DNA of 64,000 nt from contig JAKEFB010000104.1 of assembly GCA_022616275.1 (NCBI GenBank), positions 26,523 to 90,522 of the forward strand, in the 5' to 3' direction. Made by a program: the position numbers and the translations under genes. Below are positions 17,863 through 46,336 of this stretch, in pieces (position 1 is the stretch's first letter; each line of letters begins with the position of its first letter). The DNA comes from Chloroflexota bacterium (GTDB taxonomy: Bacteria > Chloroflexota > Anaerolineae > Promineifilales > Promineifilaceae). Below the pieces are notes generated by a model. It searched no databases, was not told where the DNA came from, and saw only the letters and a program-made list of their open reading frames with translations.

Positions 17863-20127
17863 ATGGTGATGCCTGGGCCTGTTCCGGCCGCTACTCAGGA
17901 GGTTGCCATTGTTAATGGTAGCCCGGAGGAAGAACAGTTTTTTACACTGGTTGACACTTACCTGAGCGCCAGGGACCGGCCGCGCGTGCGTAAAGCGTAC
18001 GATTTTGCTCAGCGGAAACATGGCGACCAACGCCGTAAGTCCGGTGAGCTTTTTTTTACCCATCCCCGGACGGTCGCCTACTACCTGGCCGAATACCGGC
18101 TGGATGCCCCGGCCCTGATGGCTGCCCTGCTGCACGATGTGGCCGAGGATACCCGGGTGTCGGTAGCCGAAATCCGGCGGCGCTTTGGCGCTGAAGTCAG
18201 CCGCCTGGTAGACGGCGTCACCAAGTTGAAAGAAGTCACTTCCCGCAACGGCCGCGGCCGGGAAATGACCACCGAAGAGGTCCGGGATGCCACGCTGCAT
18301 AAGCTGTTTGAGGCTATGACCGCCGACGAGCGGGTCATTATCATCAAGCTCTTTGACCGGCTGCACAACCTGCGCACCATAGACGCCCTGCCGCCGGCCA
18401 AACAACAGCAAAAGGCCCGCGAAACCTTAATGGTCTACGCGCCGCTGGCCAACCGGCTGGGTATCTGGCGCTTGAAAAGCGAGCTGGAGGCGTTGTCGCT
18501 GCGGGCCCTGGATTCGGCCGCCTACCAGGCCATTAAACAGCAGCTTGAGAGCCAGTTTCACAAGCAGCAAGCCGATTATGCTGCCATCACCAGCCAGATC
18601 ATCGAATGCCTGGTCGGCCAGGACGTCGGGGTGGTCAACGTTCTGCCCAACCCGCAGAGCATTTACACCGTTTACCAATCCCTGGCGGCTACTTCCGCTC
18701 CCCCCCGCAATGCCGACAGCACCCTCCGGGTGGTGGTCCTCCTGGAGGACATCCCCTCTTGCTATCTGGCCCTGGGCCTGCTGCACCATTTATGGCGGCC
18801 GGTGCCCGGCAAGTTTGACGACTATATCGCCCTGCCTCGCGATAACCTCTATCGCTCGCTACACACGACCGTCATTCATTCCAGTGGCCAGCCGCTTAAA
18901 ATTCGCTTTCGCACCGTGGCCATGAACGAGGTCTCGGAAATAGGTGTGCTGGCCCGCTGGGTATACGCCTCGGCCCCCCTCTGGTCCCGGGAAATTGACG
19001 ACCGGGTGGAAGCCCTCTTTGCCAACGTCCGCGAGAATATACGGCTGGAGCCGCAGAATGTCAGCGCCGGTGTCAAGGGAGTGGTCGAGGATGTCTTTCG
19101 CAAGCAAATCATGGTCTACACGCCTCGGGGCGACGTAATCGAGCTGCCTCAAGGGGCGACGCCGGTTGATTTCGCCTTTACCATTCACACCGAGGTGGGC
19201 AACCAGTGCCAGATGGCTTATGTCAACGAAAAGCCTTATCCGCTCAACAAGCCGCTGCACGACGGCGACCGGGTGCGTATCGTCAAGTCCGGCTGGGCCC
19301 GGCCGCAACGCACCTGGCTGGACGAAGATCTGGGCTTCCTGACCACCGGCCGGGCGCGCGCCCCGGTGCGCCGCTGGTTCCGCCGCCTGCCCCGCAAGAT
19401 TGCCGTGGCCGAAGGTAAAAAACTGCTTCAGGACGAGCTAAAGATGTTGGGTCTGGAGGAAAAGTCCCCCGATGAAGTTGCCTTGCTGTTTGGTTTTGAT
19501 CAGCCCCAGGGCCTCTATTACGCCTTGGGGCGGGCCGAGCTACTGCCGACCACAGTCGCCACACACGTCCTGGCCGAGGATTGGTACCTGGAGCCGCTGC
19601 GCAACGTCGGCAGCGTCGTCCATACCGAGACAGGCGAAGAGTTTGTCATTACCAATGCCAGCTATCGCCATTTGCGCCTCTGCCGGGCCTGCAACGCCCG
19701 GCCGGGTGACCCTATCGTCGGCTTTCTGCGTAGCGACGGCGGCGTAACCGTCCACCGGGAGGAGTGCTATACCCTCCGGCCGGACCCCCTGGCCGAGCGA
19801 GTCATCAAGCTGGACTGGGGCAAGGAGGGTATCCAGGGGGTACGGGTCGTGACCGTCCAGATTAACGTCTACGACCGGACCGGCCTGCTCTTTGAGATTG
19901 CCGAGCTGTTACGGGACGAAAACATCAACATTGCCGCCATTTACACGCCGCCGGGCCCCGGCGAAGGCAAGCTCCAGGTCGTACTGGACCTGGAGGTAGT
20001 CAGCCCCCGCCAACTGGTCCGCGTCTTGCACCGCGCCCACGCCCTGGTCAACGTCTATTCTGTCTACTGCCTGCCCAAAGAGCGCAGCGGCACAGCCGCC
20101 ATCCCCACCCGCTACTTACCTGAATAG
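17863..20127 (+). CDS. RelA/SpoT homologue: intact (p)ppGpp hydrolase, decayed synthetase
   Basis: 754 residues with the full HD, synthetase, TGS and ACT layout. The hydrolase site is complete: His67, His91-Asp92, Glu95-Asp96 (LLHDVAEDT), and Asp165/Asn169 in KLFDRLHN. The synthetase region (about 255-370) keeps the fold (GKFDDYIALP, SLHTTVI) but departs at catalytic positions. The usual EIQIRT reads KIRFRT (Lys346 for the essential Glu), NGYQSLHT reads NLYRSLHT, and the KxxYSIYxKM segment lacks its lysines. TGS (about 405-465) and ACT (about 675-740) follow. It probably only degrades (p)ppGpp. It begins 9 bp after the response regulator. Confidence 0.9.
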   Translation: MVMPGPVPAATQEVAIVNGSPEEEQFFTLVDTYLSARDRPRVRKAYDFAQRKHGDQRRKSGELFFTHPRTVAYYLAEYRLDAPALMAALLHDVAEDTRVSVAEIRRRFGAEVSRLVDGVTKLKEVTSRNGRGREMTTEEVRDATLHKLFEAMTADERVIIIKLFDRLHNLRTIDALPPAKQQQKARETLMVYAPLANRLGIWRLKSELEALSLRALDSAAYQAIKQQLESQFHKQQADYAAITSQIIECLVGQDVGVVNVLPNPQSIYTVYQSLAATSAPPRNADSTLRVVVLLEDIPSCYLALGLLHHLWRPVPGKFDDYIALPRDNLYRSLHTTVIHSSGQPLKIRFRTVAMNEVSEIGVLARWVYASAPLWSREIDDRVEALFANVRENIRLEPQNVSAGVKGVVEDVFRKQIMVYTPRGDVIELPQGATPVDFAFTIHTEVGNQCQMAYVNEKPYPLNKPLHDGDRVRIVKSGWARPQRTWLDEDLGFLTTGRARAPVRRWFRRLPRKIAVAEGKKLLQDELKMLGLEEKSPDEVALLFGFDQPQGLYYALGRAELLPTTVATHVLAEDWYLEPLRNVGSVVHTETGEEFVITNASYRHLRLCRACNARPGDPIVGFLRSDGGVTVHREECYTLRPDPLAERVIKLDWGKEGIQGVRVVTVQINVYDRTGLLFEIAELLRDENINIAAIYTPPGPGEGKLQVVLDLEVVSPRQLVRVLHRAHALVNVYSVYCLPKERSGTAAIPTRYLPE

Positions 20128-20130
20128 GCT

Positions 20131-20163
20131 AACCTCCCGGAGGTTGGCAACCTCCGGGAGGTT
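20131..20163. repeat. REP-like palindrome pair
   Basis: AACCTCCCGGAGGTT (20131-20145), GGC, AACCTCCGGGAGGTT (20149-20163). Each half is itself a palindrome and the two are inverted to each other, so the block can form one long or two short hairpins. It follows the RSH stop by 3 bp and may end its transcript. Confidence 0.88.
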
Positions 20164-20189
20164 GGCGCTCGCTGTCGTCTTCTGAAAAT

Positions 20190-20217
20190 TTGACACCTTC
20201 CTCGAACCCTGTATAAT
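20190..20217 (+). promoter_or_regulatory. Consensus sigma70 promoter for the glycogen-binding protein gene
   Basis: TTGACA at 20190-20195 and TATAAT at 20212-20217 are separated by 16 bp, the best promoter in the window. The predicted start is near 20224. Confidence 0.85.
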
Positions 20218-20223
20218 TCCCGC

Positions 20224-20328
20224 CTGTTTTGGATTTGCTCCAAAACAAAGATGAATAGGTGGTTGACCCGGCTGCCGCGAGGCAGCCGTTGTGTTGCCGC
20301 AGCAAATTTAAGGAAGGAGTATTTTACC
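20224..20328 (+). promoter_or_regulatory. Structured 5' leader with two hairpins
   Basis: A ~105-nt leader. The first stem is GTTTTGGA and TCCAAAAC around TTTGC; the second is CGGCTGCC and GGCAGCCG closed by a GCGA tetraloop. AAGGAAGGAG at 20310-20319 then precedes the ATG. Two strong stems upstream of an open ribosome site suggest mRNA stabilisation or regulation; no known riboswitch class is recognised. Confidence 0.55.
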
Positions 20329-20634
20329 ATGTTGACGAAGAAGTTTTTGAAGTCCAAGGACGAATGCGAGGTTACCTTCGAATTCGCCGCCGACGCCGCC
20401 GGCAAAGTGGCCCTGGTCTCCGAGGCCACCGGCTGGCAGCCGCTGGAAATGAAGAAGCGCAAGAAGGACGGCGTCTTCTACGCCAAGGTTCGCCTGCCCG
20501 AAAGCCACAAGTTCCAGTACCGCTACCTGTTGGACGGCCAGACCTGGGTCAACGACCCGGCCGCCGACGCCTACGTACCCAACGAGTTCGGTAGCCACAA
20601 CGGCATCGTGGACACCACCCCCACGCTGAACTAA
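20329..20634 (+). CDS. Stand-alone glycogen-binding (CBM48/AMPK-type) domain protein
   Basis: 101 residues consisting almost only of an isoamylase N-terminal/AMPK glycogen-binding-like domain: VTFEFAADAAGKVALVSEATGWQPLEMKK, VFYAKVRLPESHKFQYRYLLDG and WVNDPAADAYVPNEFGSHN. Carbohydrate-contacting aromatics are present. It is too short to be an enzyme and has no signal peptide, so it is presumably cytosolic and attaches to glycogen-like polymer or to a partner. The near-consensus promoter, structured leader, strong ribosome site and following terminator suggest an abundant, independently expressed protein. Confidence 0.82.
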   Translation: MLTKKFLKSKDECEVTFEFAADAAGKVALVSEATGWQPLEMKKRKKDGVFYAKVRLPESHKFQYRYLLDGQTWVNDPAADAYVPNEFGSHNGIVDTTPTLN

Positions 20635-37011: not shown

Positions 37012-37521
37012 ATGCCCCATCCATTTACAGTCGCCGGCCGCTACCGCAACCGGCGGGGGGCTTACACTGTTCTTGTTATTGACGGCGACCAGATGGCCAT
37101 CCGTTACGGCGATGGCTCTGAGCAGACAGTGCCCATCGCCTCACAAGCCCGCATTTGGCAAAACATCCAGGCCGACGAAGCGCCGCCACTCCGCATTCAC
37201 CGCCCTGACGAATACGACAGCCTGGAAATCCAACCCGTTGTCGAACTGGTGCAAACCGTGCTGGCTACCTTCTCTACCCCTTACCCCACTGACATTATTG
37301 ATCAGATGTGCCTGGCCATTGAGCGCAATCCAGAGTGGTTAGCCCGCTATGATGCGCTTATTGAGCATTTCAGCAGCCGGGGAAAGAACGGCACGAATAC
37401 AGTTAATTCCAGCATTGGTTTCTACACCAAAGAACTGGCCGGAATGGTTACACTCAAAGAGGGGAATCGAGCGAAGAGCCGCCTGATTGGTTCTTATTCA
37501 ACCCTGAGCTATGGGGAGTAA
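37012..37521 (+). CDS. Hypothetical protein, possible small beta-barrel plus helical domain
   Basis: 169 residues from the ATG at 37012 with AAAGGAGG 6 nt upstream. Residues about 1-55 (FTVAGRYRNRRGAYTVLVIDGDQMAIRYGDG) look like a small beta-barrel as in KOW/SH3-type domains. The rest is helical, with the well-defined stretch LARYDALIEHF. No family recognised. It sits between REP palindromes right after the RAYT gene. A nucleic-acid-binding role is possible but unsupported. Confidence 0.6.
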   Translation: MPHPFTVAGRYRNRRGAYTVLVIDGDQMAIRYGDGSEQTVPIASQARIWQNIQADEAPPLRIHRPDEYDSLEIQPVVELVQTVLATFSTPYPTDIIDQMCLAIERNPEWLARYDALIEHFSSRGKNGTNTVNSSIGFYTKELAGMVTLKEGNRAKSRLIGSYSTLSYGE

Positions 37522-37545
37522 GCCTCCCAAGGGTTTCAGTACGCC

Positions 37546-37578
37546 ATCCTCCCGGAGGTTCCCAACCTCCGGGAGGGT
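37546..37578. repeat. REP-like palindrome, last copy in the window
   Basis: ATCCTCCCGGAGGTT, CCC, AACCTCCGGGAGGGT. It lies between the hypothetical gene and osmC; none is seen after this point. Confidence 0.9.
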
Positions 37579-37600
37579 GGTGAACGGAAAGGAGAATCGA

Positions 37601-38020
37601 ATGAAAATTAGCGCTCACGTGCAAAACAGTGAAGGCAACCATCAGGTTACGTTGCGCACCAACGATAACGTTCATTCCATTCACATTCCGCCCAAACCCA
37701 CCGGCTTCGGTTCGAGCGCCAATGGCGGCGAAGTGCTTTTCCTGGCCTTAGCCACCTGCTATGGCAATGACATTTATCGTGAAGCGGCCAGGCGTGGCAT
37801 CAAAGTCGAGCGGGTTGAGGTTGAGGTTAAAGGCGACTTTGGCGCGGAAGGCGAACCGGCACGGAATGTGACCTATCGAGCCAGGGTAGTCGCCCAAGCC
37901 AGCGAAGCGGAGCTTCGAGAGTTGATGAACTACACTGACCAGGTCGCGGAGATTCAGAACACGTTGCGAGTTGGGACGCCTGTTAAATTAACTCAAATTG
38001 AATTACAAACAGTTATTTGA
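37601..38020 (+). CDS. OsmC-family peroxiredoxin-like protein
   Basis: 139 residues from the ATG at 37601 with AAAGGAG upstream. The OsmC order is seen: a beta-rich N-terminus, then GSSANGGEVLFLALATCYGNDIYREAARRGI with the usual catalytic Cys after LATC, and the paired strands VEVEVKGDF and VTYRARVVA. OsmC/Ohr proteins reduce organic peroxides with a Cys pair. The second Cys is not evident (E for C in the later helix), so this may be one of the non-peroxidase members. Its 3' end is duplicated at 44045-44195. Confidence 0.82.
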   Translation: MKISAHVQNSEGNHQVTLRTNDNVHSIHIPPKPTGFGSSANGGEVLFLALATCYGNDIYREAARRGIKVERVEVEVKGDFGAEGEPARNVTYRARVVAQASEAELRELMNYTDQVAEIQNTLRVGTPVKLTQIELQTVI

Positions 38021-38051
38021 CGGCCGGCTCATCTCTACAGTATCATGAAAC
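37901..38051 (+). repeat. Direct repeat A: 3' end of osmC and downstream bases
   Basis: 151 bp aligned without gaps to 44045-44195; by eye I count about nine mismatches. It covers the last ~40 codons and 31 bp after the stop. Together the two copies bracket about 6 kb. Confidence 0.88.
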
Positions 38052-38697: not shown

Positions 38698-39840
38698 TTA
38701 CCCCTCGCAGAGTACGTTATCAATCAGTTCTAAGGCTGCCTCGTCCTGCGCCTGATTCGCTACGGGGTCGGCGCGCCAGCTAGAAACTGAGAGCACCACA
38801 CCACGGCTACCGTCCTCGTTGAACCCCTCTAAGCTCAGGTATCCGGGAACCGCACCACCGTGGCGCCAGTAGCCACCACCGCACGACAGCGGACTCCAAC
38901 CGAGCCCCAGGCCGTAACGGCCGCCCTCTGTGGGAACGGTGTCTTGCATCTCCGCCAATTGCTCCGGCGCCAGCAGCTCGCCACCAAGCAGCGCGCTGAA
39001 AAAGCGAGACACGTCCTTGGGCGTACTGATGATGGCCCCGCCTGCGTCGCCTGCGCTCGGGTCGAGCAGGGTAGCGTCAACGAGTGGGCCACCTTGAGCG
39101 AACTGGTAGTAACCCCTGGCGTGCGGGTCGGGCATTTGCGGGCCGTTGCCCACCGTGGTCTGCTCCAGGCCGAGCGGCTCGATAATCCGGTCGCGGATCT
39201 CTTCGGCCCAGGGGTTGCCGGTCACCGCTTCGATGATCATCCCGATGAGTACATAGTTAGTGTTAGAGTAGCTCCGGGCGGTTCCCGGTTCAAAGATCGG
39301 AGGGTGATGCATGGCAATGGCGACCAGTTCCTCGGGCTCGTAGTGATCGAACCGGCGCTCCTCGAAGATCTCGAGGGCGTTGAATGGATTCCACTCCTCG
39401 TCCAGGTTGTAGTCGTAGATACCGCTCGTGTGCCGGAGGAGATCGCGGATCGTGATCGCGCTGCCGTCGTGCCCCCCGCCGCTCACCACGCCGGGTAGAT
39501 GCTGCGCCACAGTATCATCGAGCGACAGACTGCCTTCGCCGACCAGTTGAAGAACGACTGTCGCTACGAACGTCTTGGTGGTACTGGCGATGCGGTAGTG
39601 TCCGTTCTCGGGCACTGGTTCACGACTCTGGATGTCGGCGACACCGCTGACAGCGACGAAAACCTCGCCGCCCAGAGTCACTCTGGCCTGCGCGCCGACG
39701 GCGCCCCTGTCGCGAATAGCATCCACGTCCCGTTGCAAGTCGTCCTGGTCATATCCGCCACTCTCTGAGCAGGCCGCTGCGATAGTCAATACAACCGCGG
39801 CGACCAGTGCGGCAACCAGTCTGGCACTCCTTCTGCTCAT
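38698..39840 (-). CDS. Lipoprotein serine hydrolase, class C beta-lactamase/DD-peptidase family
   Basis: 380 residues from the ATG at 39840. A signal peptide with lipobox (TIAAAC, Cys about residue 24) predicts an exported lipoprotein. Active-site motifs are STTK (SxxK nucleophile), YSNTNY (YxN) and the C-terminal RHGG in place of KTG. DLLRHTSGI and ISTPKDVSRF are standard for the family. Members act as DD-peptidases, esterases or amide hydrolases; this need not give drug resistance. It is the last gene of the PadR-led operon, 13 bp after the FtsX gene. Codon style is unlike the flanks. Confidence 0.88.
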   Translation of the reverse strand: MSRRSARLVAALVAAVVLTIAAACSESGGYDQDDLQRDVDAIRDRGAVGAQARVTLGGEVFVAVSGVADIQSREPVPENGHYRIASTTKTFVATVVLQLVGEGSLSLDDTVAQHLPGVVSGGGHDGSAITIRDLLRHTSGIYDYNLDEEWNPFNALEIFEERRFDHYEPEELVAIAMHHPPIFEPGTARSYSNTNYVLIGMIIEAVTGNPWAEEIRDRIIEPLGLEQTTVGNGPQMPDPHARGYYQFAQGGPLVDATLLDPSAGDAGGAIISTPKDVSRFFSALLGGELLAPEQLAEMQDTVPTEGGRYGLGLGWSPLSCGGGYWRHGGAVPGYLSLEGFNEDGSRGVVLSVSSWRADPVANQAQDEAALELIDNVLCEG

Positions 39841-39853
39841 AAGGGTTTGTCCT

Positions 39854-42334
39854 TCATTCGATCGGTGGTCGGGCCAGGGTGGACGGCTGGCGACCACCCA
39901 GCAGCCAACCAGCGATGGTGGCAAGCAGGGGAACGCCGATGGCGACGATGGACAACTGGCGGACAGGCACCCCAGCCAGCGTGTCGAGTTCGCTGGCGAA
40001 GCTCGCGGCCAGCCCCAGGTATGCCCCGGCCGTACCTAGCATGACGCCGAGAACGGCCAGCCCGCCGGCAGTAGCGGCGGTGATCGTGCGGCGGATCGAG
40101 CCAGTAGCCCCGGCTGCGGTGAGGGTACGCAGATCCCCGGCTGCTTCGCTGCGGATCAGACCGACAGCCATGGCCAGGATGCTGAGGGCAATGACCCCCC
40201 CGGCCATCATCGCCCCTGAGCGCAGCGAACGCAGCGTGGCGAGGTTCACCCCGTCTCTGGCCTCGACCATCAGGCTGGCGCTTGCGGCCACATCACGCGC
40301 CGCCGCGAGTTGCCCGCTGGTCACAGGCCGGGCGGCTACGACAAGCCAACCAGCATGCGCCGCTTCCCAGCCTCGCCGGCGCAGCGCGTCAAGGGTGATC
40401 AACGAGGTTGGAGCCGACGAGTAAGCGGGAACATCGAGCCTCTCGACGCTCGTGACGAGTTCTTCCTCGATCCCCCGCCGGAAGCCAATCTCACCCATAC
40501 GCACGGTGAGGACATCGATATCCGGGTCAATGGTGTCAGGGTCAATCCCGTAAAGTCTGAGCAATTCCGGCGTAGCGACGAAAAGCGGGCCGGGATTTGC
40601 CGTGAGTGCGCCATCACCCACCTGGACGGCGTGGCGCCATGTATTCCCACGTGCGCCGGGGTTCGCAGCCTCGTTTGGATCCACGGCCATTTGCAAGGCG
40701 ATCACCACGGGCTCGTCCAGCGGGCCGGCGAGCTGTTCGACCTGGACTTGAAGACGCTCGACCTCGGCCGGCGTGCGTACGGTGACAAGCTCCCGTATGC
40801 GGCTGCCCTCCTGGGTGATCAAGAGTTGCCTGTCAGACAGGTTGCCGAGTTCGGCACTCTGCTCGTCTCTAGCCACGATGATGATAACGGCCACTGCCAT
40901 TCCCAGCGCGAGGCTGATAGCCGCCAGAGCCGCGGCCGAGCGGGCTGGATAGCGGGTCAGATCCCGCAACGCCAACCGCACCCCGACCGGCAGCCCTCCA
41001 GCGGCCGCCGCCAGCGTCCAGATCGCCAGCGGGCTGAAGAGGAGTATTCCGAAGCTCGTCGCCACTGTGCCCACGCCGATGAGCAGCATGTTGATCCAGC
41101 CAGCGGCAGCAGCGTCAGCGATGGCGAGGCAGATGAGACCGCTTGCCAGGATCAGGCCGCCTCGCCTGGCCACGGGACGCACCGGCTGGGGCCGGGTAGG
41201 CCGGCCGGATAGGGCGACGACAACCGGCAGACGCGCCACGGCTCGGGCTGGCCACCATGCAGCCGTAGTGGCCGACACAATCGCAAGCAGCATGCCTGCC
41301 CCAATTAGCCACCATGGCAACACATCAAATCGGTTAATACGAGCCCCTACCACCGCGGTTTCCAGGTACGGCACAAGCGCGATCCAACCTAGCAGGCCGA
41401 GGGCCGCCCCAATCACAGCCGCGACGACGCCAACGATGGCGCCATTAGCCAGCATCACCAGCCGGAGTTGCTTCTCGGTGGCCCCGATCGCCGCGAGCAT
41501 GCCGAGCTGGCGCTGGCGGCGCTGAGCGATGACGATGAAACCGGCGGCGGCGACGAGGGAAACCAGCACCATGGCCACGGCGGCGACGCCGAGCGCAGCC
41601 CCGGCCGCGATCACCTGCACGTTGGCCGGGCCCTCAATCATTTCGTGGCTCACCATCCCCTCGTCGGGCCATGAGAACGAAAGAAACTGCTCAAGGCTCC
41701 CGCGGACCAGGATCGTCACGGTCGTGGGTGGGCTGGCGTGGGCCGGGGCTACCAGGACGAACTTGTCCCGCAGGTCACTGGGATTCTCTACCAGGCCGAC
41801 CACCATCCGCTCGCTGTTGGCGAGGGCGAACCGGGAGTTGAGCCCGAGATTGAAGGTCTCCGCCACCGCATCGGTCACGGCGACCTCGCCGGCGCCTGTC
41901 GGATAGCGGCCCTCCCGCAGCGCCAGCATCGGGCCGCTATAGGCGCCCTGCGGGTCTTGCGCTCGGAGTTCAACGATTTCGGCAGTGCCGGGAACCGGCA
42001 CGTACCGGCGGCCGATCACGTCAACGGTACCATACCACGCCTCGAGCGTGGCAATATTAGCTGCCAGCAGTTGGGGATCGGACCCGTCGTGGACGAACGC
42101 CTGGTTGGCTGCGCCGAATTCCCCGGGTGAATTCCCGAGAGGAGCCAGGGTATACGCGGCCGAGGTGACGGCAATGGCCGCCGCGGCGGCAACCGTAAGC
42201 AGTGCCAGTACCAGCGCCTGCTGGCGCCACTCACGGCGAAACAGCCGCCACGCCCAACGAATCACCGCCCGGCGAGCGGGAAGACCACCATCATCTCTCA
42301 CCATTCGAAATGGAATAAGTCGTGCTCGGCTCAT
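39854..42334 (-). CDS. FtsX-like ABC transporter permease
   Basis: 826 residues. An N-terminal helix, a large extracytoplasmic region (about 50-230), then two FtsX-type permease blocks: VAMVLVSLVAAAGFIVIAQRRQRQLGMLAAIGATEKQL near 260, and a second near 690 (LRTLTAAGATGSIRRTITAA). MacB/LolCE-type permeases work mechanically from the periplasm or outer face, not as channels. The start overlaps the ATPase stop (ATGA). The style, actinobacterial-looking and with few GGCCGG strings, suggests transfer. Confidence 0.88.
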   Translation of the reverse strand: MSRARLIPFRMVRDDGGLPARRAVIRWAWRLFRREWRQQALVLALLTVAAAAAIAVTSAAYTLAPLGNSPGEFGAANQAFVHDGSDPQLLAANIATLEAWYGTVDVIGRRYVPVPGTAEIVELRAQDPQGAYSGPMLALREGRYPTGAGEVAVTDAVAETFNLGLNSRFALANSERMVVGLVENPSDLRDKFVLVAPAHASPPTTVTILVRGSLEQFLSFSWPDEGMVSHEMIEGPANVQVIAAGAALGVAAVAMVLVSLVAAAGFIVIAQRRQRQLGMLAAIGATEKQLRLVMLANGAIVGVVAAVIGAALGLLGWIALVPYLETAVVGARINRFDVLPWWLIGAGMLLAIVSATTAAWWPARAVARLPVVVALSGRPTRPQPVRPVARRGGLILASGLICLAIADAAAAGWINMLLIGVGTVATSFGILLFSPLAIWTLAAAAGGLPVGVRLALRDLTRYPARSAAALAAISLALGMAVAVIIIVARDEQSAELGNLSDRQLLITQEGSRIRELVTVRTPAEVERLQVQVEQLAGPLDEPVVIALQMAVDPNEAANPGARGNTWRHAVQVGDGALTANPGPLFVATPELLRLYGIDPDTIDPDIDVLTVRMGEIGFRRGIEEELVTSVERLDVPAYSSAPTSLITLDALRRRGWEAAHAGWLVVAARPVTSGQLAAARDVAASASLMVEARDGVNLATLRSLRSGAMMAGGVIALSILAMAVGLIRSEAAGDLRTLTAAGATGSIRRTITAATAGGLAVLGVMLGTAGAYLGLAASFASELDTLAGVPVRQLSIVAIGVPLLATIAGWLLGGRQPSTLARPPIE

Positions 42335-43050
42335 GGGATAGCACCAGAGTAAGTAGCCTCGAGACTTGAAGGTGAAGTTTGATCGACCACACGCCCGTCT
42401 CGTAGGAACACCACCCGGTCAGCCCACGACGCCAGTTGCGCATTATGGGTCACCACAACGCCGGCAACTCCCCGCTGGCAGGCGGCACGCAACCGGCGCA
42501 TCACCACCTCGCTGTTCACTGAATCCAGGGCGCCGGTTGGCTCGTCGGCAAGCAGTAAATATCGGTCACCAACCACGGCTCGCGCAATTGCTGCCCGTTG
42601 TCGCTCGCCGCCCGACAGTTCATCAGGATAATGGGCAGCCCGATCGGCAATGCCCAGTTCTTCGAGCGCCGCCATCCCGGCCGCACGCGCAGCCCTGACG
42701 CCAACCCCATCTAACTCCAGGGGCAGTGCCACATTCTCTACCGCAGTCAGCCCTGCGAGCAGGTTGAAATCCTGGAACACGTACCCAATGGACCGGCAGC
42801 GCAGCCGCGCCCGGTCATCGCGCGACATGCTGAATAAATCCGATCCCCCAACGAGCACTTCCCCACTGGTTGGGTCTTCGAGGCTTCCGGCAATCGTCAA
42901 CAGCGTGCTCTTACCCGAGCCGCTCGGCCCCATGATCGCCACCAGTTCGCCGTGCTCGACCGACAGGTCAACCTGCCAGAGCGCACGCACCTCGGTCGGG
43001 CCTTCGCCATAGACTTTCGATACCTGGTGGAGTTCGAGCGCTGCGGTCAT
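42331..43050 (-). CDS. ABC transporter ATP-binding protein (MacB/LolD type)
   Basis: 239 residues from the ATG at 43050; the longer frame overlaps padR. Walker A GPSGSGKST, Q-loop VFQDFNLL, signature LSGGERQRAAIA, Walker B LLADEPTGALD and His in VVVTHNAQ are all canonical. It powers the FtsX permease encoded next and is coupled to padR upstream and to the permease downstream by ATGA overlaps. Confidence 0.94.
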   Translation of the reverse strand: MTAALELHQVSKVYGEGPTEVRALWQVDLSVEHGELVAIMGPSGSGKSTLLTIAGSLEDPTSGEVLVGGSDLFSMSRDDRARLRCRSIGYVFQDFNLLAGLTAVENVALPLELDGVGVRAARAAGMAALEELGIADRAAHYPDELSGGERQRAAIARAVVGDRYLLLADEPTGALDSVNSEVVMRRLRAACQRGVAGVVVTHNAQLASWADRVVFLRDGRVVDQTSPSSLEATYSGAIP

Positions 43051-43604
43051 GGCTGCACCTCCACGATGTGACCCATGTCGGCACCGGTGGGCGGAAACTG
43101 CTTCAGGCGGATGTCGGCTGCGTCGAGCCACCGTATGGTCCCCTCGAGCCGGAAAAGCTGGGCATCAACGATGAGTGCGAGGGCCACGTCGTGCTCGGTT
43201 GCTTCCGCTTTTAGATGGGTGTATCGCTGCATCATCTCAACCACGTACCGGCGGTGGATTTGCAAAAGCTCATGTACATCAATACTGGGCACTCTCAATG
43301 CCACCAACACTTTGATGACCAGTTCATCCCGTGGTGGAGGTTCTAACTCCGGCGGGGTCCGGAGCCATTCGGTAAGTTCACCGCGGCCGGCTGGCGTGAT
43401 CCTGTAACCCTTCTGGGAACCCTTGGCCTCTTCATCGTCATATTCGATCAGTCCATCCCGTTCGAGACGCTGGAGGGTGGAGTACACCTGTCCAACGTTG
43501 AGAGGCCACACCTTCCCCGTTCTCGATTCAAACTCTTGCTGTAGCTGCAAACCAAACTTCGGGCGTTCGCTCAGTAGGGCCAACATAGCATGCTGAACAC
43601 TCAT
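43047..43604 (-). CDS. PadR-family transcriptional regulator
   Basis: 185 residues. The N-terminal winged helix (MLALLSERPKFGLQLQQEFESRTG, VYSTLQRLERDGLIEYDD, KGYRITPAGRGELTEWL) is typical PadR; the C-terminal helical half (about 100-175) is the dimer arm of the longer PadR subfamily. PadR proteins repress exporter operons and are released by drugs or metabolites. It leads the operon padR-ATPase-permease-serine hydrolase, and three operator-like repeats lie 22 bp upstream of its start, so autoregulation is likely. Confidence 0.93.
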   Translation of the reverse strand: MSVQHAMLALLSERPKFGLQLQQEFESRTGKVWPLNVGQVYSTLQRLERDGLIEYDDEEAKGSQKGYRITPAGRGELTEWLRTPPELEPPPRDELVIKVLVALRVPSIDVHELLQIHRRYVVEMMQRYTHLKAEATEHDVALALIVDAQLFRLEGTIRWLDAADIRLKQFPPTGADMGHIVEVQP

Positions 43605-43679: not shown

Positions 43680-44040
43680 CGTGTCTCACAGGAATGGTTA
43701 CACTCACCTGTTGCCCCCGCCCCCATAATGCCACCTCAAACCCGCCTTGCCCCCCACAATGCGCAGGGTACTATTACCTTTTTATATTTATGCGCACCTT
43801 GCGCATCTTGCTCATCTTCTTTCCCTCAGCTCTCATTTCTCTCCCTCTCTTCTCTCCCCCTCTCCCCCTCATCCCTCACCCCCATCCCTCCTCCCTCAGT
43901 CTTCCCTCCTCCTCCCTCTTCATCACTCATCACCCATTACTCATCACTCATCACTACTATCCATTCCACTTTCTTTCTTCAACCAACACTTCAACCATCA
44001 ACAGAACTATCGGCCACCTCAATCAATGACAAATCTATCA
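43680..44040 (+). other. Gene-free, pyrimidine-rich low-complexity segment
   Basis: The plus strand from 43830 to 44003 has, by my count, a single G (43899) and is made of CTCCCT- and CATCACT-type runs. Open frames across it are Pro/Ser/His/Leu-only and not believable as genes. It lies at the right edge of the acquired operon, between padR and the osmC fragment. Confidence 0.8.
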
Positions 44041-44044
44041 GGCG

Positions 44045-44195
44045 AGCGAAGCGGAGATTCGAGAGTTGATGAACTACACTGACCAGGTCGCAGAGATTCA
44101 GAACACGTTGCGGGTTGAGACGCCGGTTACATTAAGTCAAATTGAGTTACAAACAGTTATTTGACGGCCGGCTCACCTCTACAGTATCATGAAAC
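44045..44195 (+). pseudogene. osmC 3'-end fragment (direct repeat B)
   Basis: Matches 37901-38051 over 151 bp without gaps. The translated tail (SEAEIRELMNYTDQVAEIQNT...) has no start or catalytic Cys, so it is a remnant. Most differences from the intact gene are silent or conservative, pointing to a diverged second copy, not a very recent duplication. Confidence 0.87.
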
Positions 44196-44516: not shown

Positions 44517-45005
44517 ATGGAACTACTAGAAGCCATTCGGACCAAACGGGCCGTCCGGAACTTTACCGGCCAGCCCGTGCCGGAGTCCATCATCCACCAA
44601 ATCTTGCACGCCGGCCGCCGCGCCCAGAGCAGCAAAAACAGCCAGCCCTGGCACTTTATTGTCGTTCGCCAACCGGAGACACTCAAACAACTGTCAACCT
44701 GCGGCCGCTACGCCGGCCATCTGGCCGGCGCAGCCTTCGCCGTGGCCATTATCTCCTCCGAACAGTGGGCCTTTGACATCGGGCAGGCGGCTGCCTACCT
44801 GCAACTGGCCGCCTGGTCCTTGGGCGTCAGCTCCTGCCTGGCCTCCCTGTCGGAACCCGAAAAGGCCAAAGCCATTTTAGGTGTCCCCCCGGACAAACAG
44901 TTTCACATCGTCCTCTCCTTTGGCTATGCCGCCGGACCGCCATCCCGCCCCAAAGCAACCGGCCGTCGCCCATTAGAAGACGTCGTGCGCTGGGAACATT
45001 GGTAA
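44517..45005 (+). CDS. Nitroreductase family protein
   Basis: 162 residues, on the short side for the family. FMN-binding features are IRTKRAVRNFTGQPVPE, ILHAGRRAQSSKNSQPWHFIVV, the central AAYLQLAAWSLGVSSCLA and the C-terminal IVLSFGYA. Such flavoproteins reduce nitro, quinone or similar groups with NAD(P)H as dimers in the cytosol. It is followed after 6 bp by the AhpD-like gene, so the two redox enzymes probably share a transcript. Confidence 0.9.
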   Translation: MELLEAIRTKRAVRNFTGQPVPESIIHQILHAGRRAQSSKNSQPWHFIVVRQPETLKQLSTCGRYAGHLAGAAFAVAIISSEQWAFDIGQAAAYLQLAAWSLGVSSCLASLSEPEKAKAILGVPPDKQFHIVLSFGYAAGPPSRPKATGRRPLEDVVRWEHW

Positions 45006-45011
45006 CACCCT

Positions 45012-45566
45012 ATGGCCTGGATCAAAGTCATCCACGAAGCCGAAGCCACCGGCCGCCTCAAAGAACTCTACGATCACTACACCGAGCCCTGGGGCGGCGT
45101 AGACAACATCCTCAAAATCCACAGCCTCAACGCCAACTCCCTCAAGGCCCACTACGACCTCTACGCCCACCTCATGCGCGGCCGCTCCGCTTTAAGCCGC
45201 GTCCAGCGCGAAATGATTGCCGTCGTCGCCTCGGCCGCCAACCACTGCCACTACTGAATCCAGCACCACGGGGCCGGGCTGCTCCGCCTCACCAACGACC
45301 AGACCCTGGTCCACCAGCTCCAGACCGGCTGGTCCCAGGCCGCCCTCAGCGCCGCCGACCGGGCCATGCTAACCTACGTCGAAAAACTCACTCTCCGGCC
45401 GTGGGACATGGTCCAGGCCGACGTCGTCGCCCTGCGCGCCGCCGGCTTCGGCGACGCCACCATCCTCGACATCAACCAGGTCACCGCCTACTACGCCTTC
45501 GTCAACCGCCTGGCCGATGGGCTGGGCGTAGAGTTAGAATCTTTTTGGGAGGAAGAGAAAGAGTAG
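45012..45566 (+). CDS. AhpD-like peroxidase-related protein, probable selenoprotein (in-frame UGA)
   Basis: One continuous frame of 184 codons if UGA at 45255-45257 is read as selenocysteine. Codons 1-81 give the peroxidase-related AhpD/CMD N-terminus (EPWGGVDNILKIHSLN, REMIAVVASAANHCHY). After the UGA the homology continues in the same frame (IQHHGAGLLRL, LTYVEKLTLRPWDM, ILDINQVTAYYAFVNRLADGLGVE). UGA stands exactly where this family has the second Cys of the CHYC redox pair, giving Cys79-His-Tyr-Sec82. A stem-loop follows at the expected distance. The alternative is a nonsense mutation or base error. Confidence 0.8.
45270..45290 (+). promoter_or_regulatory. Candidate bacterial SECIS stem-loop
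   Basis: Starting 12 nt after the UGA: G45270-C45290, G-U, G-C, G-C, C-G, a C/C mismatch, then G-C and G-U pairs, with apical GCTGC (45278-45282). A G opens the loop about 20 nt from the UGA, within the range known for bacterial SECIS elements. The pairing was done by hand. Confidence 0.45.
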
Positions 45567-45584: not shown

Positions 45585-45983
45585 TTATTTCAGGATGCTA
45601 AATCCCTGTTCTGTAAAATGCTGGTCAAAGGCAAAAACCGCGCTGATACTACGCCGCCGGCACACCTCAAAACTGACGCAGTCTACCAGGCTCAAGTGGC
45701 GACGATTTGCCGTGAGAAGCGCGACGACTCCAGCCTGATGTGAGGATTCGTCTATCCATTCAATACTCAAGAGCTGGACAACGCTGTCGTGGAAATCTCT
45801 AACGGCTGCCATACCAAGGCGACTTTGAATAAGCGCGAAAGATTCTAATAGAACATAGCTCGTACAAATCAGTTTGGCCCCGTCATACAATAATTGCTCC
45901 CACCGCTTTGTAGCAGCAACATTATTCCTGTCGTTCTTGTCTAGTAGCGCCAAAAAGGCTGATGTGTCAACGAATACTCTCAC
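45585..45983 (-). CDS. VapC-like PIN-domain toxin
   Basis: 132 residues from a GTG at 45983 that overlaps the antitoxin TGA as GTGA. PIN acidic residues are present: FVDTSAFLALLD, the Glu in VLLESFAL, and the C-terminal LVDCVSFEV and FAFDQHF. VapC toxins are Mg-dependent RNases, often cutting tRNA or rRNA, held inactive by the antitoxin. It is convergent with the selenoprotein candidate. Confidence 0.9.
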   Translation of the reverse strand: MRVFVDTSAFLALLDKNDRNNVAATKRWEQLLYDGAKLICTSYVLLESFALIQSRLGMAAVRDFHDSVVQLLSIEWIDESSHQAGVVALLTANRRHLSLVDCVSFEVCRRRSISAVFAFDQHFTEQGFSILK

Positions 45984-46237
45984 TCGTTCCAATCCGCATA
46001 GGTCTCGGCCAGATACTTATCATGGTTAACGCTCAGATCCGTTACGTTAGAAGAATATTTTCCAGCAATTGCCAGCGCCTTCTGGCGCTTTTCATCCAAG
46101 GTTGGCTCATTTATTGATTGAATAAACCCATCAACGCTCTGCCGGATCAATTCAGCTATTGATACGCCTTGCTCCAGGGCTATCCGTTTTAAGATTTGAG
46201 ACTGCTCTTCTGTCAGTTGTACTTGCGTTCTTACCAT
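45980..46237 (-). CDS. Ribbon-helix-helix antitoxin (VapB-like)
   Basis: 85 residues from the ATG at 46237 with GGAGGG 6 nt upstream. VRTQVQLTEEQSQILKRIALEQGVSIAELIRQSVDGFI is a ribbon-helix-helix DNA-binding domain; the C-terminal tail (YLAETYADWNE) contacts the toxin. It binds its own promoter. The upstream AT-rich stretch with ATGATTAC and TACATGAT (46261-46285) is a likely operator. Confidence 0.88.
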   Translation of the reverse strand: MVRTQVQLTEEQSQILKRIALEQGVSIAELIRQSVDGFIQSINEPTLDEKRQKALAIAGKYSSNVTDLSVNHDKYLAETYADWNE

Positions 46238-46336
46238 TTTATCCCTCCATCCAGATAACATGATTACAAAATTGTATACATGATAGCATATTTACCCTAT
46301 ATACACAAAACGTGTTTCAACACATTTTTCAGATTA

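Follow-up and report, generated by a model that had tools for sequence, protein, structure and literature searches.

The window, a stretch of 64,000 nucleotides from a Chloroflexota bacterium, harbors a gene whose reading frame contains a stop codon near its middle, raising the question of whether this codon ends the protein or specifies a selenocysteine (Sec) residue. The gene is located on the plus strand at 45012..45566, and its translation confirmed the frame described in the original prediction, with 184 codons, a closing TAG stop and one in-frame TGA at codon 82 (45255..45257, plus strand). The translated context of this codon, N-H-C-H-Y-*-I-Q-H-H, places it at the second position of a C-H-Y-U motif. 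There it replaces the second cysteine of a C-H-Y-C pair, as had been proposed and as both the translation and an alignment of homologues bear out, while the codon for Cys79, the first position of the CxxU pair, is found at 45246..45248 on the same strand. Judged by sequence comparison, the UGA of codon 82 very probably encodes Sec and 45012-45566 represents a genuine selenoprotein gene. Annotation that reads TGA only as a stop would truncate this gene at codon 81, with the loss of half of the redox pair.

When the TGA is translated as Sec, the protein product matches the TIGR01926 model at 149.7 bits (cut-off: 81.8 bits), with residues 2-173 aligned to positions 1-173 of the 178 in the model, and the Pfam CMD domain (PF02627) at 45 bits (cut-off: 23). 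The former match covers almost the entire model and exceeds its curated cut-off, and by this profile comparison the protein is a member of the TIGR01926 peroxidase-related/AhpD-like family. The match extends on both sides of codon 82, in agreement with the earlier observation that family sequence continues after the TGA.

Homologues were collected at three levels. A near-relative survey covered 60 genomes, namely the host and 59 relatives, with a match in 29 of these, and included close orthologues sharing 65-79% identity in fourteen relatives. Matches were furthermore present in 168 of the 400 genomes in a survey of the phylum, where TGA and cysteine forms are mixed. In a collection of named loci, searched with patterns placed outside the TGA, 311 loci encode a relative, of which the best 80 were kept. 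These represent 80 distinct genes and include all fourteen close orthologues, and the counts for the two sets therefore constitute one body of evidence; as the top-scoring loci they are also biased towards the near clade.

The gene immediately upstream, located on the plus strand at 44517..45005 and ending 6 nt before the ATG, encodes a nitroreductase-family protein (PF00881; 78.2 bits), as the original prediction had stated, and is possibly co-transcribed with the selenoprotein gene. The two may form a functional pair, in which, for example, a flavin reductase feeds electrons to its neighbor, and the shared strand and short intergenic distance are consistent with this. A PF00881 gene (70-86 bits) is likewise located upstream on the same strand in four of the 80 named loci (L085, L089, L103 and L151), and in L151 the two genes are separated by 120 nt that contain no open reading frame of at least 90 codons. 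However, these four nitroreductases score 112-125 against that of the window, as compared with its self-score of 846, and are thus of another sort. They are located 1.8 kb away with other reading frames between in L085 and L089, which correspond to the close orthologues L022 and L025, and 0.5 kb away in L103. No comparable nitroreductase match is found in the other 76 named loci (next best score: 60); 74 of the 80 loci hold at least 1.9 kb of upstream sequence. Similarly, no nitroreductase match scoring above 53 is present within about 1.5 kb of any of the fourteen close orthologues, those of L022 and L025 lying beyond this distance. A nitroreductase partnership is possible, though weakly supported, and we consider it unlikely.

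No conserved neighborhood could be recognized across the 81 loci compared (the 80 named loci and the window), where the largest flanking cluster comprises ten loci and the sole cluster containing the window is that of an ABC ATPase. Several further features can be observed around the gene. A direct repeat of 157 nt (37895-38051 and 44039-44195; 93% identical; start-to-start distance: 6144 nt) may be the mark of an insertion, and its first copy forms the tail of an OsmC-like reading frame (37511-38020). Between the two copies, a serine hydrolase resembling class C β-lactamases is encoded on the minus strand (38698-39924), for which none of the 25 families shown exceeds its cut-off, along with minus-strand reading frames (39854-43604) which by eye resemble an ABC permease, an ABC ATPase and a PadR-like regulator. 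Just downstream of the gene, two overlapping minus-strand reading frames (45585-45992 and 45980-46261) resemble, also by eye, a PIN-domain toxin and its antitoxin of the VapBC type.

The TGA could reflect a nonsense mutation, a pseudogene or a sequencing error in an AhpD-like gene of the cysteine type, as it differs by one base from TGC or TGT, and these codons do occur at the same column in more distant homologues. Among the 109 loci L054-L162, a range that includes the gene of the window itself (L054) and duplicates of L121 (L055) and L116 (L056), 95 carry TGA and fourteen carry TGC or TGT. Furthermore, one genome of the same family (G015) retains only a 55-residue match containing one TGA and one TAA in frame. 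Against such an event stand the TGA at the codon 82 column in all 80 of the best named homologues, including the fourteen close orthologues, each of which contains exactly one TGA, the retention of family sequence in the frame beyond it and the presence of Sec-decoding genes in the assembly. The shared TGA refutes mutation or error for the clade, and we consider either very improbable for the gene of the window. The alignment of homologues that the original prediction had proposed as a check shows a TGA that is constant in the near clade, with TGC or TGT in more distant homologues. The search for stop codons elsewhere in the frames of relatives, which would have spoken against the prediction, gave a divided result: none of the fourteen close orthologues contains another in-frame stop, while a second stop is found in G015 and in the more distant relatives L059, L060 and L151. 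That of L151, one of the best 80, is a TGA within the aligned stretch. In the phylum survey the match in L059 contains two TGA codons and that in L060 one TGA and one TAG, with one TGA in the aligned open stretch of each; the extra stops in these two loci may stem from decay, from an error in the frame, or from another codon with a special reading.

In a quick tree built from 69 rows (Sec: 52; Cys: 17), among them 28 of the 80 named loci, the Sec/Cys label requires two changes, as compared with a mean of 15.4 in shuffles, although many of the inner forks are weak and one Cys row, L065, is set off by a long branch. The record titles of the best 80 loci name Chloroflexi, Acidobacteria, Marinimicrobia, KSB1, Calditrichia, Planctomycetota, SAR324, Gemmatimonadales and a Deltaproteobacterium, although metagenome bins may be mislabelled. 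A search of plasmids returned 387 records, all below 60% identity (best match: H1, unannotated). A separate TIGR01926-like group (L036-L039, L061 and L063), sharing 42-48% identity with the window protein where identity is given, also carries one TGA at the same column, in a C-x-Y-U motif followed by an insert. We raise tentatively, as a possibility that we hold to be rather improbable, that the clade is an essentially Sec-only branch of TIGR01926 in which cysteine is unable to replace Sec, and this branch may extend over the genomes titled Chloroflexi, Acidobacteria, Marinimicrobia, KSB1, Calditrichia and Planctomycetota. If so, this would suggest a substrate or reaction dependent on selenium chemistry, unlike the situation in ordinary AhpD. 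A clade with TGA in 80/80 of the best named homologues furthermore offers a fair test of the benefit of Sec to an AhpD-type enzyme.

The sel genes that the original prediction had suggested searching for are all present in the host assembly (8.53 Mb; 309 contigs; 98.25% complete). A tRNA-Sec is located on contig C210 (70.2 bits) and was identified by ARAGORN as SeC with the anticodon TCA, while selA is found on C261 (569 bits; cut-off: 268) and selB (334 bits; cut-off: 242) and selD (366 bits; cut-off: 125) are both on C60. All four are on contigs other than that of the window (C308), in an assembly with 5.5% contamination. The selD gene (L016; G000:C60:33807-34742) contains an in-frame TGA of its own, in S-C-A-G-*, and the selenophosphate synthetase is therefore likely a selenoprotein itself. 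Six other tRNA-Sec matches, one of them over the cut-off, were rejected as ordinary tRNAs (Ser, Ser, Leu, Tyr, Arg and Gly). A second AhpD-like gene of the same genome (L051; G000:C281, about 20045-20449, minus strand) also carries one in-frame TGA, in C-K-Y-*, and scores 82.3 bits against TIGR01926 over a 130-residue stretch (cut-off: 81.8).

Co-occurrence with selA was discarded as a test, since selA is found in 52 of the 60 near-relative genomes (over the cut-off in 51), with or without the gene. Two genomes that contain the TGA gene, G021 and G027, show no selA. Both encode a selB over the cut-off, and G021 has a tRNA-Sec (71.9 bits), whereas in G027 (1270 contigs; 85% complete) no tRNA-Sec exceeds the cut-off and the best two matches are tRNA-Ser. 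We take the missing sel genes of these two genomes to be draft gaps.

A G-headed stem-loop about 20 nt downstream of the TGA had been proposed as a bacterial SECIS element. A predicted hairpin within the coding sequence (45269..45286, plus strand) begins 11 nt after the TGA and comprises a 6-bp stem, CGGGGC/GCTCCG, and the loop CGGGCT (45275-45280), in which the GG at 45276-45277 corresponds to bases 22-23 when the U of the UGA is counted as 1. Across 78 distinct stretches, G22 is conserved in 78, G23 in 76, C25 in 74 and U26 in 78; in the fdhF SECIS of Escherichia coli, the key bases of the loop occupy these same positions. The 78 stretches were derived from 97 loci (the gene of the window, L020-L033, L055, L056 and the 80 named loci) by removal of repeats and of one containing an N, and come from related sequences, such that they are not independent. 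Bases 22-27 form codons 89-90 (Gly-Leu), and part of the loop conservation is therefore driven by the protein. Nevertheless, the Leu90 codon is CTN in 76 of 80, while TTR makes up 29% of the leucine codons in these genes.

In a better test, each stretch was compared with synonymous recodings of itself, for which the gene in question supplied the codons. In all 78 distinct stretches, the hairpin around bases 22-23 surpasses the mean of these recodings in stability (mean z: -2.19), with p<0.05 in 41, and that of the window itself has a predicted energy of -9.2 kcal/mol (z: -2.17; p: 0.060). Among 15 Cys homologues, a chosen set from which L066 and L068 are among those left out, z ranges from -2.03 to +1.24 and is negative in eight (mean: about -0.3). 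The best stems fall into four registers, with 40, 9, 19 and 10 sequences. That of the window (19 sequences) shows changes on both sides at pairs 15-32, 18-29, 19-28 and 20-27 and a single mismatch at 15-32 and another at 16-31, a count that is biased towards pairing because sequences were sorted by their own best hairpin. Folding of single sequences was rejected as proof of a SECIS, as four stretches of this region of the window were not more stable than their dinucleotide shuffles (z: +1.05, +0.52, +0.09 and +1.55). The proposed stem-loop thus stands as a conserved hairpin with GG at bases 22-23, while its folding as a single sequence is unremarkable, and the predicted SECIS is supported by comparison between species and not by the window sequence alone. 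The recoding results support codon-level selection for a hairpin after the TGA.

The UGA could also be read without Sec machinery, as tryptophan or cysteine through a changed code, or by leaky read-through, given that the frame is open across the TGA and the presence of selenium in the protein is deduced from sequence. The full set of Sec genes in the assembly, with a tRNA-Sec of anticodon TCA, and a hairpin signal after the TGA that exceeds that in the Cys homologues argue against decoding of this kind, which we regard as scarcely probable. Decoding of codon 82 as Sec would instead involve SelB and tRNA-Sec, aided by the downstream SECIS hairpin within the gene.

The protein so produced would have the AhpD fold and act as an AhpD-type selenol oxidoreductase. 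In an AlphaFold2 model built from 29 sequences, the secondary structure consists of helices throughout (mean pLDDT: 94.0; pTM: 0.88), with helices 63-76 and 80-94 flanking the CxxU motif. By spacing, Glu67 (45210..45212, plus strand) and His86 (45267..45269, plus strand) are equivalent to the relay residues of AhpD-like proteins described in PMC3141380, giving the relay Glu67-Cys79-Tyr81-Sec82-His86, whose Glu, Cys, Tyr and His residues are conserved in every one of the best 80 of the 311 named loci. The relays given in that paper are Glu36-Cys48-Tyr50-Cys51-His55 for PA0269 (2O4D), a Glu-Cys-Tyr-Cys-His arrangement with spacing identical to that of the window protein, and Glu118-Cys130-His132-Cys133-His137 for Mycobacterium tuberculosis AhpD, where the spacing is also equal and Cys133 occupies the position of Sec82. 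By homology we infer a peroxidase role and everything else beyond Sec insertion: Sec82 would serve as the attacking selenolate, assisted by Glu67, Tyr81 and His86, Cys79 would resolve it as a selenenyl sulfide, and the protein may reduce a peroxide or a disulfide partner.

A search of the literature, mostly of non-subscription papers, yielded no paper on the gene of the window, nor any biochemical study of a family member containing Sec. For the phylum of the window, a 2006 survey (PMC1794560) counts three selenoproteins in three families. The original prediction had noted that AhpD-like selenoproteins are known from other bacteria, and the published surveys agree. A table row in a 2026 review (PMC13188914) reads 'AhpD-like protein, TIGR01926, CxxU, 1, MCB9421940.1', and the review credits this selenoprotein to a 2005 Sargasso Sea study (PMC1088965). 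The latter describes 27 AhpD-like CxxU sequences, with predicted SECIS elements in a figure, and in its account of them uses the name COG2128 rather than TIGR01926. A 2008 ocean survey (PMC2398784) reports AhpD-like 1 (COG2128; 299) and AhpD-like 2 (pfam02627; 70), both with CxxU. Since these sources already list AhpD-like CxxU selenoproteins, the gene of the window adds a new member to an established family, and of the 'new AhpD-like selenoprotein' originally proposed it is the member, not the family, that is new.

Comparison with these systems places the predicted selenoprotein among several related forms. The solved AhpD-like proteins of the cysteine type (3C1L, 6K40, 2PFX, 2OYO and 2PRR) are homologous by sequence (best e-value: 2.9e-31), and these, as well as PA0269, have cysteine at the position where the window protein would have Sec. 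The NF041238 AhpD_rel_CFYUT (seleno)protein shares a related AhpD domain with CxxU, but its model spans 357 positions as compared with the 184 residues of the window protein, and membership was rejected at 54.8 bits (cut-off: 175). AhpD-like 1 and 2 of PMC2398784 are CxxU selenoproteins of the AhpD/CMD superfamily, like the product of the window gene, and are classed there by COG and Pfam. The closest correspondence is with the TIGR01926 CxxU family listed in PMC13188914, which shares the same model, a CxxU motif with Sec at the second position, a single Sec and a SECIS just 3′ of it, and from which, as far as its listing and that of its example MCB9421940.1 describe it, the window gene shows no difference in kind. 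The selenoprotein of the window is ordinary in kind, and useful as a clean case in which gene, predicted SECIS and decoding genes are found together.
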